The notes beneath the pieces were generated by a model. It was not told the origin of the DNA and searched no databases. It saw nothing but the letters and a program-made list of their open reading frames with translations. From NCBI RefSeq assembly GCF_037031285.1, contig NZ_JAYEZO010000001.1, positions 1,426,001 through 1,490,000 on the forward strand: a DNA stretch of 64,000 nt. The letters run 5' to 3'. The translations under genes and the position numbers were made by a program. Below, piece after piece: positions 8,632-15,085 of the stretch. Each line of letters begins with the position of its first letter. Position 1 is the first letter of the stretch. The stretch comes from Halobellus sp. LT62. GTDB taxonomy: Archaea; Halobacteriota; Halobacteria; Halobacteriales; Haloferacaceae.

Positions 8632-9642
8632 TTACAACTGATCCAAATACTGCCTCCGTTGCTCCATCTTCTCCCGCTGCGTCCGTCGGTCGTAGTGCTG
8701 CTCAAGCACCCGCTGACTGACGTTGGCCCGCCCACTTACAGCCGTCTCCGGGATATCCTTCTTCAGATGGTGCGTTATACTCCCACGACGGATCGCGTGC
8801 GGACTGATCGAAGACGGACACTTCGACGCGTGTCCCTGCTCCACCGCTTCACAGTCTTCCGGACTGCGCCCGTGCGGACACTCCGCCCCGTACGCACAGG
8901 GCCGCGACCACCGGTAGGCATACTTCGGGATCGTCGTCCTAGACGGGCGTCCGTACTGTGTCGCGAGTAATGGTTCGCGCCCGTAGTCGTCCGTCACGTC
9001 AGGCCGGCGATCCCGCAGCCAGTCGTCGAGCAGCTGGCACAGCCACCCGGACAACCCGATGAAGCGCTCGCCGTCGATTCCGTTCTTGATTGGCGTGTCC
9101 GAGTCCGGTCGGTGGTGGAGCTCGAGACACTGCTCTTCGGGGTAATAGTCGTCGACGTCAAGCGCCCTCGCTGCGCCCCGACGCATCATCGTGTGCCAGA
9201 GCAACGCGATAGTGACGTGCGGTCGCGACGCGTACTCGTACGTCTCGAGGTGCGCGAGAATCGCTTCCGCGTCCTCGGCGTCGAGTTTCACGTCGCGGCT
9301 GTTCTCGTCCGGGGTGACGTCCGGCGAGATCACCTTGACGTGCAGGTCGGGGTCGACCGCGTCGATGGTCCCGAGCCACCGGACGAAGACACGGAGCGTG
9401 TCTATCTGGGTCTTCACGCTTACCTTACAGAGGTCGCCGTCGTTGCGTCGCCAGAGACGAAACTCCTGGAGCTTTCGTCCGGTCAGCTCGTTCAGGTTAG
9501 TGATGTCACGCTCGTCGCACCACCGAACGAAGTGACCGAGTCGAGACTGGTGCGACCGAATGGTCGATTTGGACAACTCCATTTCTTTTTCTGCGATGTA
9601 CAATTCCAGCGCCGTTTCGGGGTCGATTGGTTCCAGTTCCAT
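8632..9642 (-). CDS. Tyrosine recombinase/integrase (island integrase 2)
   Basis: A 336-residue paralogue of the recombinase at 2725-3843, sharing the same order of motifs: TIRSHQSRLGHFVRWCDE, Arg154 in TMMRRGAARALD, His282-x-x-Arg285 in PHAIRRG, Tyr317 in EQHYD, and the same Cys-rich insertion (ECPHG...CPSS). As in the first copy, the LGH-box His is replaced (SGRANVS). ATG 9642 (MELEPIDPETALELY) aligns with the conserved N-terminus, and the 13 extra codons upstream look spurious. It points toward integrase 1 across about 4.8 kb. One copy of a 165 bp repeat starts about 115 bp upstream of its start codon. Confidence 0.88.
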   Translation of the reverse strand: MELEPIDPETALELYIAEKEMELSKSTIRSHQSRLGHFVRWCDERDITNLNELTGRKLQEFRLWRRNDGDLCKVSVKTQIDTLRVFVRWLGTIDAVDPDLHVKVISPDVTPDENSRDVKLDAEDAEAILAHLETYEYASRPHVTIALLWHTMMRRGAARALDVDDYYPEEQCLELHHRPDSDTPIKNGIDGERFIGLSGWLCQLLDDWLRDRRPDVTDDYGREPLLATQYGRPSRTTIPKYAYRWSRPCAYGAECPHGRSPEDCEAVEQGHASKCPSSISPHAIRRGSITHHLKKDIPETAVSGRANVSQRVLEQHYDRRTQREKMEQRRQYLDQL

Positions 9643-9756
9643 GGTTCGATCTGATGCGAACCATTCGATTTTGAGCCCCAATCCAGACCGGTTCGTGAAA
9701 CACCGAAATGGCCGGATTTGTGTGTCTCACCATTGTTCCCGGGCAGATCCCGGTTT

Positions 9757-11334: not shown

Positions 11335-11445
11335 ATGATGGGGGTCCCGAACGTTCATCAGACGCACATAGGTCCTAGGCACAGTAGCCCGAGATCGTCT
11401 ACTCGTTTCAAGCGACTCACTAACTTCGAGCAATCGAAGCCGATT

Positions 11446-11485
11446 CTATACTTCGGACTTGACAGTATAAACACTTCGAATATAG
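11446..11485 (+). promoter_or_regulatory. Promoter/operator of the merB operon
   Basis: CTATACTTCG (11446-11455) and CGAATATAG (11477-11485) form an inverted repeat around a TATA box (GTATAAAC, 11465-11472), 13 bp before merB. A 30 bp segment from 11442 to 11471 matches 12937-12966 at 29 positions, upstream of the CC-motif gene. This marks a common operator, most simply for the HxlR regulator encoded between the two promoters. Confidence 0.7.
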
Positions 11486-11497
11486 ATGTATTGGTGC

Positions 11498-12157
11498 ATG
11501 TCGAAGCAAGATTGCAACTGCGCCGACCTAACGGTTGACCAAGCAACTGAACAGACCTCGAAGTCAGACAGCTGGATAGCCGAGCGTCCAGTGAAGACTG
11601 CGGAACTCCCGGAGACCGTGGCAGAGAACATAAGTCGGTTCTACGGTGAGTCAATCGAATCCTTCGACGGCATGGTCGCAGCAATTCGGAACGTGGTCGA
11701 AGGAGATGGAATTGCCATTGACGAACTCTGCCACGTCGGGGGAGAAACTCCCCACTACGCGAAGACGGATGGCGAGACCTACTACTTCCGGTGTTTCTAC
11801 GACGGAATCGCACTTGCACATCTCGTGGACAAACCCGTGGAGATCCGGACTGAAGCTCCTACGAACGGCTCTATTGAGATGCGGATGTCGCCTCAAGGCG
11901 ATATTGATGTCATTCCGTCGGACGCGGTCATGTCGTTCGGCGTGGCAACTGATACCGACGTCCCTCCCGGCGATGTGCCAACCGCCCAAGAAATCTACGA
12001 GGCTGTCTGCCCGTACGTGAAGGCATTCCACACGCGTGCTGACTACGAACGCTGGTCGGAGGACGTGGCTGCCACCACGATCGGGATTCCGTTGGAAGCT
12101 GGAGTCCCGATAGCCGCTGCACTGACGGCGACGTCACCGTCAGAGGTTACAGAATGA
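11498..12157 (+). CDS. merB: Organomercurial (alkylmercury) lyase MerB-like
   Basis: A 219-residue MerB-family protein, which cleaves C-Hg bonds to give a hydrocarbon and Hg(II). The catalytic set is visible: Cys99 and Asp102 in FRCFYDGIAL (equivalent to Cys96/Asp99 of the R831b enzyme) and Cys171 in EAVCPYVKAFH (equivalent to Cys159). The N-terminal domain is short, with an added Cys pair (MSKQDCNCADL). ATG 11498 is preferred over ATG 11486: the TATA box ends near 11471, and the paired promoter upstream of 12996 has the same spacing to its ATG, which fits a leaderless mRNA. The stop overlaps the next gene (ATGA). No mercuric reductase (merA) is in the window, so Hg(II) would need another fate. 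Confidence 0.85.
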   Translation: MSKQDCNCADLTVDQATEQTSKSDSWIAERPVKTAELPETVAENISRFYGESIESFDGMVAAIRNVVEGDGIAIDELCHVGGETPHYAKTDGETYYFRCFYDGIALAHLVDKPVEIRTEAPTNGSIEMRMSPQGDIDVIPSDAVMSFGVATDTDVPPGDVPTAQEIYEAVCPYVKAFHTRADYERWSEDVAATTIGIPLEAGVPIAAALTATSPSEVTE

Positions 12158-12522
12158 CCTTTGGGAACGTCGCAATCCTCGGCTTTCAAGCCGTCCTCGG
12201 ACTTGTTGGTCTCGGTGTCGGAGGGGCGAAGGTCACCCACCAGGAAGACCAGGTGGAAGATTTCCAGCGGTTCGGGTATCCACAGTGGTTCCGGATCGTT
12301 ACTGGCCTGGTTGAAATCGGGGCCGGGATCGGTCTGCTCGTGGGACTGCTATGGAGGCCTGAATTAGCGTGGGTAGGCGGCCTCCTTCTCAGTGGAGTTA
12401 TGGTTGGAGCAGTGGTGACCCACATTCGCACCGGTGATCCACCGTCAAAGACAGCTATTCCTGCGGTCCTGTTTCTCCTCACAGCAGGGATGCTGACAAT
12501 CCGCTATTTCGTTCCAGTATAG
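12154..12522 (+). CDS. DoxX-like small membrane protein
   Basis: A 122-residue protein with four hydrophobic segments (about 5-24, 45-65, 70-88 and 98-118) and a DoxX-type layout, including the GGAKVTHQEDQVEDFQRFG loop after the first helix and GYPQWFRIVTGLVEIGAG. DoxX-like proteins are often linked with thiol or redox stress, but their biochemistry is poorly defined. Its ATG overlaps the merB TGA by four bases (ATGA), so both are made from one mRNA under the shared operator. A role in membrane handling of mercury or thiols is inferred from this coupling alone. Confidence 0.8.
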   Translation: MTFGNVAILGFQAVLGLVGLGVGGAKVTHQEDQVEDFQRFGYPQWFRIVTGLVEIGAGIGLLVGLLWRPELAWVGGLLLSGVMVGAVVTHIRTGDPPSKTAIPAVLFLLTAGMLTIRYFVPV

Positions 12523-12532
12523 ATTATGGAAC

Positions 12533-12916
12533 CTATTCCTGACTGGTCGAGATCTCCTCTTCATCAATTTCTTCTACCCACTTGAGAAGCGGTTCCAGAT
12601 GTTGACCTAACTCTTCCCCGGTTTCTGTGAGTTCATATTCGACCCGTGGAGGGATTTCCGCATACTGTTCACGGGTGAGAATCCCGGCCTCAACCAGCTC
12701 GTCAAGTCTCGTTGAGAGTGTCGAGCTACTCACTCCATCGAACGTCTCTTCGATGTCCCCATATCGAGCTGGACCGATCGCACCGACTACGCAGATGAGT
12801 TGCATCGCGTAGCGACGGCTGAGGAGATCCATCACCCCATCCAAGGGACAGAGACAGTCGAGATCGATATCTGAGGAGGTAGGCGTCTCAGTTACTGTGT
12901 CGGGGGTATCTGCCAT
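12533..12916 (-). CDS. HxlR-family winged-helix regulator of the mercury module
   Basis: A 127-residue HxlR-type regulator. After a short acidic tail come LDCLCPLDGVMDLLSRRYAMQLI, the recognition region YGDIEETFDGVSSSTLSTRLDEL and the wing PPRVEYELTETG. A Cys-x-Cys pair at the start of the first helix (DCLC) is well placed to sense a thiophilic metal or oxidant, although HxlR proteins generally sense thiol stress. It lies between, and opposite to, two plus-strand promoters that share an inverted repeat. Its own start is 25 bp from one repeat arm, so autoregulation is likely. I infer that it binds both operators. Confidence 0.82.
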   Translation of the reverse strand: MADTPDTVTETPTSSDIDLDCLCPLDGVMDLLSRRYAMQLICVVGAIGPARYGDIEETFDGVSSSTLSTRLDELVEAGILTREQYAEIPPRVEYELTETGEELGQHLEPLLKWVEEIDEEEISTSQE

Positions 12917-12940
12917 AGCTTTCGTTCACCACACTTGATT

Positions 12941-12988
12941 CTATACTTTGGACTTGACAGTATAAATAATTCGGTGTTCAAAGTATAG
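12941..12988. promoter_or_regulatory. Divergent promoter/operator between hxlR and the CC-motif gene
   Basis: CTATACTTTG (12941-12950) and CAAAGTATAG (12979-12988) are a perfect 10 bp inverted repeat flanking the TATA box GTATAAATA (12960-12968). The opposite strand reads TATTTATAC, so the same core can serve the hxlR gene. The segment 12937-12966 is almost identical to the merB promoter (11442-11471). ATG 12996 follows eight bases after the right arm, as for a leaderless or very short leader transcript. Confidence 0.72.
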
Positions 12989-12995
12989 GTGTACT

Positions 12996-13352
12996 ATGAG
13001 TCAAAACGACTCAGCACGAGAGGTTGCGTGTACGCTCACTGAGGAACAGGAAGCAGACCGATCAGAGGAAGTTCAAGAACTTCTCATCTCGCACTATCTT
13101 GGATATCAGGACTCCGAAGACGGCGTCGAGATCCGATTCGAAGGCACCGATGAGTCACTCCGGGCGCTCGCTCAGTTTACTGCAGACGAGTTGCAATGCT
13201 GTTCGTTCGCCGAATACACGATTACCGTGTCGCCCCCGTACGAAGAAACGGTGCTGACTGTCACTGGCCCCGAAGGAACACGACAGATGTTCCGCGAGGG
13301 GTTTGTAGAAAAACTGGGGGAAGAGTCGGCGTCGGTCGGTCGATCCGCTTGA
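12996..13352 (+). CDS. Small protein with conserved CC motif, mercury-module partner
   Basis: A 118-residue soluble protein. The central ELQCCSFAEYTITVSPPYEE followed by LTVTGPEGTRQMF matches the ECCPF-type domain found alone or fused to MerR-like regulators in bacterial metal-resistance operons, where the vicinal Cys pair is thought to bind a soft metal. It is expressed from a promoter that is nearly a copy of the merB promoter, so it belongs to the same regulon. It could be a Hg(II) scavenger or carrier that takes the product of MerB. Function not proven for the family. Confidence 0.72.
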   Translation: MSQNDSAREVACTLTEEQEADRSEEVQELLISHYLGYQDSEDGVEIRFEGTDESLRALAQFTADELQCCSFAEYTITVSPPYEETVLTVTGPEGTRQMFREGFVEKLGEESASVGRSA

Positions 13353-13639
13353 ACCACCGCAACACCGAGCGATGAGACCGTCCTAGCAGGCGGATTCGTC
13401 CGAATTTTCCGCAGGTCGAAGATACGTTTTCCCCCCCTCTTCGAGTGAGTTGATCACGGGCTCCAGTGACTGGCCACTTCTTTCCGATCACGTCCATCGC
13501 ACAGGTGACCGCACACTAGTCGTCGCCCGCACACCACACTGCCAAGAATTCGTCTTCCGGAACCTCTGTCGCGTTGCTCATACCTGCCTGTTGAATAGCA
13601 ACACAGAAAGTAGTACCTCATCGATATGTAGTATACAAA
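13353..13639. other. Intergenic stretch without recognisable gene
   Basis: No coding pattern stands out on either strand. The segment separates the mercury module from the SelW-like gene. Its last ~85 bases become AT-rich and hold promoter-like sequence for the SelW gene. Confidence 0.5.
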
Positions 13640-13723: not shown

Positions 13724-13972
13724 ATGACGGAAGTCAACATCGAGTACTGTGTCCCGTGCAGCCCCCTCGAATACGCCGTCGAGACGCAGGAAACGTTACT
13801 CGAAGAGTTCGGCCAGGACCTCGACGGGGTTCGGCTCCAACCCGGTCACAGCGGCGTGTTCAAAGTCCATACTGACGACGACCTGATTTGGGACAAAGAC
13901 GACCACGACGGCGAGATCGACTTGGAGACTATCACCGAGGCCGTCTACGACCGCGCGCACGCTCACGCCTAA
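13724..13972 (+). CDS. SelW/SelT/SelH (Rdx) family thioredoxin-like protein
   Basis: An 82-residue Rdx-family protein with the redox motif Cys-x-x-Cys in VNIEYCVPCSPLEYA, where selenoprotein W has CxxU. It continues with the typical helix and the strands around GVRLQPGHSGVFKVHTDDDLIWDK. Rdx proteins are thioredoxin-fold reductants of uncertain substrate. It is followed 29 bp later by a glutaredoxin-like gene, making a small thiol-redox pair beside the mercury module. That is a plausible functional link, since thiol reductants are the targets of Hg(II). Confidence 0.85.
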   Translation: MTEVNIEYCVPCSPLEYAVETQETLLEEFGQDLDGVRLQPGHSGVFKVHTDDDLIWDKDDHDGEIDLETITEAVYDRAHAHA

Positions 13973-14001
13973 CTCCACGCAGCCCTCCATTCACGCTACC
14001 T

Positions 14002-14421
14002 ATGTTAGAACTCTACCAAGCAGAGGGGTGTGGCTACTCGGCGAAAGTGCGCAAGACGTTGACCGACCTCGGCATCTCGTACGTCATCCACAATCCCCAC
14101 TCTGCCGCCGGCGAGACGCGCAACGAACAGACTCACAACCAGCTCCGCACCCTCGGTGGCGAGGACCAGATTCCGTTCCTCGTCGATCACCAGCGCGGCG
14201 TGACGATGTACGAATCCGACGACATCATCGTGGAGGCCGATGCGATCGGCGCGAAAGAACTGCGTTTGGCGTACGAGACAGAGGCATCGCGGTCGAAATC
14301 GCCGGTAATGAGACGGCGGTATCTGGACTCGCTGGAGCGGTACGGACTGAGCAAGCAGCGCGGAGCGGCACGTGATACGAGGTACTGCGTTGCGGACTCC
14401 GAAGTACGGATACCGCAGTGA
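14002..14421 (+). CDS. Glutaredoxin/GST-N-like protein with atypical C-terminus
   Basis: A 139-residue frame from ATG 14002. Residues 1-75 are a clear glutaredoxin or GST N-terminal domain: MLELYQAEGCGYSAKVRKTL (active-site CGYS, monothiol type), then QIPFLVDHQRGVTMYESDDII with the cis-Pro motif. Relatives normally end soon after DDIVEYL. Here the frame runs on into a basic, low-complexity tail (SRSKSPVMRRRYLD) that looks unlike haloarchaeal protein. The alternative frame across 14270-14370 reads IAVEIAGNETAVSGLAGAV, which looks more natural. The 3' end has therefore probably been replaced or frameshifted. The redox domain itself appears intact. Confidence 0.7.
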   Translation: MLELYQAEGCGYSAKVRKTLTDLGISYVIHNPHSAAGETRNEQTHNQLRTLGGEDQIPFLVDHQRGVTMYESDDIIVEADAIGAKELRLAYETEASRSKSPVMRRRYLDSLERYGLSKQRGAARDTRYCVADSEVRIPQ

Positions 14422-14513: not shown

Positions 14514-14849
14514 TCAGTACGTAACGACTTCCAGCCCTTCGACGTCCAGAAAGTCGGTATCGTTCGAGACGACAGGCTCGTCGAGCAACAGTCCGTGAGC
14601 GGCGACAACGGAATCGGCTCCATCGAGGTTTTTCAGTTCATCAGAGGCCGCGTGTTTGCCCCGAAGCGTCCCCGATCGGCGGGCAACCGTCTCGTCGTCG
14701 GTCATCTTCCCGAGGCCGTAGAAGAGCTCTGCGACGACGGCCGAGGGGATTCGCCGCGGAGATCCGGTGGATTCGATCTCTTCGGCCAATTCTCGGGCGT
14801 CCGGATCTTGGACGGCCAACTGTCCGAGATACTGCGTATCGAGAATCAC
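14514..14849 (-). CDS. vapC: VapC-type PIN-domain ribonuclease toxin
   Basis: A 111-residue PIN-domain protein. Acidic metal-binding residues occur at the expected places: Asp4 (MILDTQYL), Glu41 (SAVVAELFYG), Asp near 81 (GADSVVAAHG) and Asp near 98 (VSNDTDFLDVEGLEVVTY). VapC toxins are Mg-dependent ribonucleases, often cutting tRNA or rRNA, held inactive by VapB. The start is GTG, overlapping the TGA of vapB in GTGA, so toxin synthesis is coupled to antitoxin translation. All expected acidic residues are present and the gene looks intact. Confidence 0.88.
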   Translation of the reverse strand: MILDTQYLGQLAVQDPDARELAEEIESTGSPRRIPSAVVAELFYGLGKMTDDETVARRSGTLRGKHAASDELKNLDGADSVVAAHGLLLDEPVVSNDTDFLDVEGLEVVTY

Positions 14850-15085
14850 GGGAGCTGTTCCTCAAGCTCCTCGCGGTTCTCCTCGTCGGACTCCTCAAGC
14901 GCGGTTTCGAGTTCGTCCGGATCCCAATGATCCTCGCGCAGTTCAGCCATATCGTCGGCGAACTCGAGGAGCGTGTAGTCGTCGACCAGTCGTTCGAGCG
15001 CGTCACTCAGCGTCTCTCCCGGTCGTTTCTCCGATTCGATCCGCGCGTAGAGGTCTTCGCTCACCCGGATCTGTTTCGTTCCCAT
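14846..15085 (-). CDS. vapB: VapB-type antitoxin
   Basis: A 79-residue antitoxin. The N-terminus MGTKQIRVSEDLYARIESEKRP is a ribbon-helix-helix-like DNA-binding strand and helix. It is followed by LSDALERLVDDY and a highly acidic C-terminal tail that would wrap around VapC. It is the first gene of the vapBC pair (GTGA overlap). Such antitoxins usually repress their own promoter, which would lie in 15086-15200. There the direct repeat ATTCGTTCA-TT-ATTCGTTCA (about 15204-15223) is a possible operator, though it is somewhat distant. Confidence 0.85.
   Translation of the reverse strand: MGTKQIRVSEDLYARIESEKRPGETLSDALERLVDDYTLLEFADDMAELREDHWDPDELETALEESDEENREELEEQLP

Follow-up and report, generated by a model that had tools for sequence, protein, structure and literature searches.

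A putative tandem-dyad operator associated with HxlR-family regulators at haloarchaeal merB and merA loci

The merB module and its two promoter elements

The window, the whole 64,000-nt stretch of DNA analysed here, is part of a haloarchaeal chromosome, on a 1.95-Mb contig of the 3.23-Mb genome of Halobellus sp. LT62. A merB-like gene lies at 11498..12157 on the plus strand (PF03243, MerB, 1.1e-15) and is followed on the same strand by doxX at 12154..12522 (DoxX_2, 6e-24). For merB the ATG at 11498 is preferred over a start at 11486, based on promoter spacing and the alignment of homologues. Since the start of doxX overlaps the stop of merB by 4 nt, the two genes are regarded as an operon. An hxlR regulator gene occupies 12533..12916 on the minus strand (PF01638, HxlR, 1.2e-19) and encodes a protein with a C21-x-C23 pair and C42. 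Beyond it is a plus-strand gene at 12996..13352, whose product, with C12, C68 and C69, is called the CC protein here. The initial annotation had described these four genes in the same way; Pfam supports HxlR, MerB and DoxX_2 and has no match for the CC protein.

Several neighbours were also identified. Between the CC gene and an Rdx gene is a decayed second HxlR-family gene (13386-13581, minus strand), with an in-frame stop and the middle missing. Intact relatives of this copy precede an Rdx/glutaredoxin pair in loci L035 and L038. The Rdx (SelW-like) and glutaredoxin/GST_N-like genes at 13724-14421 recur near the merB-doxX-hxlR-CC cluster in several genomes. A gene pair at 14514-15085 on the minus strand encodes a PIN toxin and a VapB-type antitoxin. 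A XerC-like tyrosine recombinase gene (8632-9681, minus strand), about 1.8 kb from the module, suggests that the module has a mobile context.

The module contains two copies of one element. Copy 1 is upstream of merB-doxX, and copy 2 lies between the divergent genes hxlR, read on the minus strand, and CC, read on the plus strand. Direct comparison of the 30-mers at 11442-11471 and 12937-12966 confirmed that they are identical at 29/30 bases, with a single mismatch, and the similarity reaches 55 nt at 80% (11442-11496 and 12937-12991). The genome scan proposed in the initial annotation returned only these two known places in the whole 3.23-Mb sequence, both with a 25-mer allowing up to three mismatches and with a looser 21-mer. 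In the cross-species comparison its scores of 25-37 of 37 are far above chance, as shuffled sequence reaches at most 20-24. Both copies had been described as wrapped by an inverted repeat. This is exact in copy 2, where CTATACTTTG (12941-12950) pairs with CAAAGTATAG (12979-12988), but copy 1 has kept its left arm and not its right, which in register reads AGATGTATTG and matches at 7/10 positions. A gapped pattern with a spacer of 18-26 nt had no match in the genome, as the 10-bp arms are in fact separated by 28 nt.

Alignment of the same regions from other genomes gave the conserved unit TACTTCGGACTYGACAGTA-YAAN-TACTTCGNNNNNCGAAGTA. When all axes of symmetry were scanned, the best two were operator positions 10 and 33, which define two 19-bp dyads set 23 bp apart. 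In an independent set of merA loci these two axes again rank within the four best. By comparison of these sequences, the most fitting reading of the element is a tandem pair of 19-bp dyads with a TATA box at the junction. The long inverted repeat noted earlier is the left half of dyad 1 together with the right half of dyad 2, and the claim that the TATA box lies inside the operator was correct, the box being placed where the two dyads meet.

In operator 1, the merB-doxX promoter, the upstream dyad TACTTCGGACTTGACAGTA (11449..11467) has a dyad axis and is conserved in all 21 merB loci that have hxlR. The TATA box TATAAA is at 11466..11471 (plus strand), and transcription presumably starts about 27 nt downstream of it, at the merB ATG at 11498. 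The downstream 19-mer CACTTCGAATATAGATGTA (11472..11490) has an intact left half and a degenerate right half. Operator 2, in the divergent hxlR/CC promoter, consists of dyad 1 TACTTTGGACTTGACAGTA (12944..12962), a junction TATA box that reads TATAAATA / TATTTATA (12961..12968) and dyad 2 TAATTCGGTGTTCAAAGTA (12967..12985). This TATA box could be used by both the CC gene on the plus strand and hxlR on the minus strand.

Co-occurrence of the element with HxlR regulators

The sample comprised 392 genomes of the order, and a MerB relative is encoded in 65 of them (E up to 1e-10). Thirty merB loci were examined, and in 21/30 an HxlR orthologue adjoins merB or lies in the same cluster, in varied gene orders. 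The element was found in 21/21 merB loci with hxlR (25-37 of 37) versus 0/9 without it (16-17 of 37, the shuffled level). The Fisher probability for this co-occurrence is 7e-8, a figure not corrected for shared ancestry. In all nine merB loci without hxlR, merB has an HTH_10-type regulator gene as its neighbour and the promoter is another one; one of the nine regulators was scanned for the HTH_10 domain, and the other eight are its homologues. These loci (L016, L018, L020-L022, L028-L031) share another promoter motif, TTGGGAGTCACNNCGATAG, along with the HTH_10 (Bat-type) regulator gene, and the HTH_10-linked merB genes appear to form a second, different system of merB control.

Because the consensus had been read from the merB loci themselves, the decisive test was a search that started from the element. 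The 21-base core of the element was searched in the 392 genomes and gave 56 sites in 51 genomes; a reversed-pattern control gave no site in the genomes listed. All 51 of the sites checked are beside an hxlR gene of this clade and merB, merA or CC. The remaining 5/56 sites are at the starts of merA (2) or merB (3).

The nearest plasmid relatives of the regulator are about 50-55% identical to it, and one of them is divergent from merA on pNG600 of Haloarcula marismortui. In loci sampled by MerA, a sister HxlR gene is divergent from merA at a distance of about 78 nt in 28/30. A related element accompanies it in these 28 loci (26-36 of 36) and is missing from the two that have no sister HxlR (16-17). 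In a phylogenetic tree the merB-linked HxlR proteins form one clade and the merA-linked proteins another, and the two are grouped together with 99/93 support. Both group within a haloarchaeal clade, in a tree from a short alignment that leaves the deeper forks unresolved.

The identity of the linked MerA proteins was also examined. Three loci were submitted to the TIGR02053 mercury(II) reductase equivalog model, and all passed it (525.9-529.8 bits versus 454.45). The C-terminal end is SCC[IV]E, a vicinal cysteine pair, in 30/30. A gene annotated merA in H. salinarum is reported to have no mercuric reductase activity (PMC7278568). The possibility that haloarchaeal 'MerA' is bis-gamma-glutamylcystine reductase was therefore checked, and the HxlR-linked proteins do carry the C-terminal cysteine pair. 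The closest protein to MerA in the window's genome is without this pair.

The regulator, MerB and the CC protein

The regulator contains the HxlR winged-helix domain (PF01638, 70.4 bits versus a cut-off of 20.8), and its fold matches the structures of HxlR, YodB, QsrR and HypR. There was no MerR match in Pfam or NCBIfam, and the ArsR model NF033788 gave 17.4 bits, below its cut-off of 55. C23 aligns with the CP motif, the conserved N-terminal cysteine of HxlR/DUF24 proteins. C21 and C23 are invariant in 19 orthologues. The initial annotation had drawn attention to a DCLC pair in this gene. The pair is present as C21-x-C23, but it is not a mercury-specific feature because it is common to most archaeal relatives. 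As a mark of mercury sensing the C-x-C pair was rejected, since it occurs across archaeal HxlR proteins; for many of these no merA or merB homologue was detected in the flanking DNA examined. Residue 42 is cysteine in the merB/CC-linked clade but serine in the merA-linked one, and among haloarchaeal sequences C42 is specific to the former. B. subtilis HxlR is an activator, and family membership therefore does not decide between activation and repression. Sensing through the N-terminal cysteine is established in the HxlR family (PMC7835342, PMC6798810, PMC6943732), with formaldehyde sensed by HxlR (PMC7835342) and quinones by YodB and CatR (PMC6798810).

The MerB product is above the PF03243 domain cut-off (58.2 bits versus 27) and far below the cut-off of the NCBIfam MerB equivalog (41.2 bits versus 193). 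PDB searches with MerB, by single sequence and by profile, gave no MerB match. C103-x-x-D106 and C175 (numbered from the 11486 start) are invariant in 20 homologues. The catalytic set given for MerB is C96, D99, C159 and C117 (PMC8261052). Catalytic residues were judged here by family invariance only, and no counterpart of C117 was seen.

The CC protein matched no family model in Pfam, and a fold search gave no significant match. C12, C68 and C69 are invariant among five members. Rhodococcus MerR-family regulators contain a homologue of this protein as their C-terminal part (32% over 98 residues), suggesting a domain that stands alone in haloarchaea and is fused to a regulator in Rhodococcus. 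Two MerR-family regulators with such a C-terminal part (L168 3509-4288 and L169 3497-4288) adjoin SBF-family transporter genes. A further homologue is a small protein in an arsenic cluster of Adhaeribacter. The CC protein likely has a thiol metal-binding role.

No recognisable MerA was found in the window's genome or in the genomes with the closest merB modules. Without MerA, Hg(II) released by MerB would be left without its usual sink. The absence of MerA is not unusual, because about half of MerB-encoding genomes have none (PMC8261052).

Proposed regulation and competing readings

We favour, with a probability of roughly 0.7, a reading in which HxlR is a cysteine-containing repressor that covers the TATA box. 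It would act on its own gene as well as on merB-doxX and the CC gene, and mercury compounds would relieve the repression. The two operator copies would put merB-doxX, the CC gene and hxlR under one HxlR-family repressor. The dyad operator, seen as a comparative footprint, is the predicted binding site of HxlR, and two HxlR dimers side by side on the tandem dyads would block access of TBP/TFB. Occlusion of the TATA box by the two dimers would produce repression and autoregulation until a thiol ligand caused release. With merA and merB as the targets, mercury suggests itself as the signal. Organomercurials or Hg(II) may act on the N-terminal cysteines C21-x-C23, perhaps also C42, to release the repressor and turn the module on. 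In a haloarchaea-wide scheme the sister HxlR clades would serve merB/CC and merA. Comparison among genomes shows that the element exists, how it is built, that it goes with this HxlR clade and that it is confined to these genes; direct HxlR binding, repression and a mercury ligand are what we infer. The initial proposal, in which merB-doxX, the CC gene and hxlR itself answer to HxlR and not to MerR or ArsR, gains support from a linkage kept in rearranged gene orders, the 21/21 versus 0/9 distribution, the element-first search and the sister clade at merA.

HxlR may bind the operators and respond to a different signal. This could be thiol stress in general (electrophiles, hypochlorite or disulfide stress) or a metal(loid) other than mercury, for example arsenic; merB, doxX and CC would then be part of a wider module for thiol protection. 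In known HxlR/DUF24 regulators the N-terminal cysteine is the sensor of quinones, aldehydes and HOCl (PMC6943732, PMC6798810), and catDE, a catechol/quinone-detoxification operon with two CatR boxes, is controlled by the HxlR-family proteins CatR and YodB (PMC6212828). Rdx and glutaredoxin-like genes adjoin the module in several genomes, a CC homologue is in an arsenic cluster, CC proteins are found beside SBF transporters, and the window's genome is without MerA. We nevertheless consider this signal unlikely: the sister HxlR clade is dedicated to a genuine-looking merA, and at every inspected site the target of the haloarchaeal clade is merB, merA or CC.

It is very improbable that the two elements are merely a duplicated or conserved strong core promoter and no operator. 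The element does include the TATA box, and in most loci it lies at promoter distance from the start codon, but merB and merA genes with no HxlR neighbour lack it, and conservation runs through the dyads on both sides of the TATA box. We give equally little credence to binding by a regulator other than the adjacent HxlR. The decayed second HxlR gene at 13386-13581 could be cited in its favour; against it, an hxlR gene of this clade adjoins every inspected site in the 392 genomes in varying gene orders, and hxlR genes of other archaea have related dyads upstream.

The favoured HxlR-mercury reading has partial parallels in known systems. The Bacillus subtilis HxlR/DUF24 regulators YodB and CatR with catDE share with it the family, the fold, the conserved N-terminal cysteine and a small regulator. 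The product of catD is, we assume, a DoxX-type protein. The catDE promoter also has more than one box (PMC6212828). Unlike the module described here, that system has a quinone/catechol signal, a bacterial promoter and no merB or merA. Bacterial mer operons controlled by MerR likewise have a divergent regulator, an operator at the promoter and merA/merB targets, whereas here there is an HxlR protein with no MerR match, an archaeal TATA promoter and tandem 19-bp dyads. The merHAI genes of Sulfolobus solfataricus, with an ArsR-type MerR, are also archaeal mercury genes with a winged-helix regulator. That regulator, however, belongs to the ArsR family and serves one operon, while the present one is an HxlR protein (ArsR model 17.4 bits versus 55).

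The open-access literature searched contained nothing relevant linking HxlR to mercury, and the initial annotation likewise named no HxlR-controlled mercury regulon. A large mer survey reported MerR or ArsR in all but two operons (PMC3466566), and a 2021 survey of MerA and MerB hardly treats regulation (PMC8261052). On balance we lean towards HxlR as a third dedicated family of mercury-responsive regulators, alongside MerR and the ArsR type. In this view it would govern merA and merB throughout haloarchaea by means of tandem dyads placed around the TATA box, and the organomercury branch (with the extra C42) and the Hg(II) reductase branch would each have a sister regulator of their own. If true, a third regulator family would explain haloarchaeal control of mercury genes. 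It would also provide a clear example of a thiol-stress regulator taken over for the response to a heavy metal, and a sensor module working in saturated salt. Genomes with MerB and without MerA would become testable for whether the module responds to organomercury alone.

Similar dyads are found in more distant archaea. TACT-N11-AGTA dyads, many of them weak individually outside haloarchaea, are upstream of hxlR genes in several other archaeal phyla, a number at exactly -53. That a single position recurs points to the 19-bp dyad as the ancestral operator of this HxlR lineage, with the doubling around the TATA box arising in haloarchaea. In loci L057-L097, from diverse archaea, the dyads lie about 50 nt 5' of C-x-C HxlR genes, with -53 as the recurrent position.
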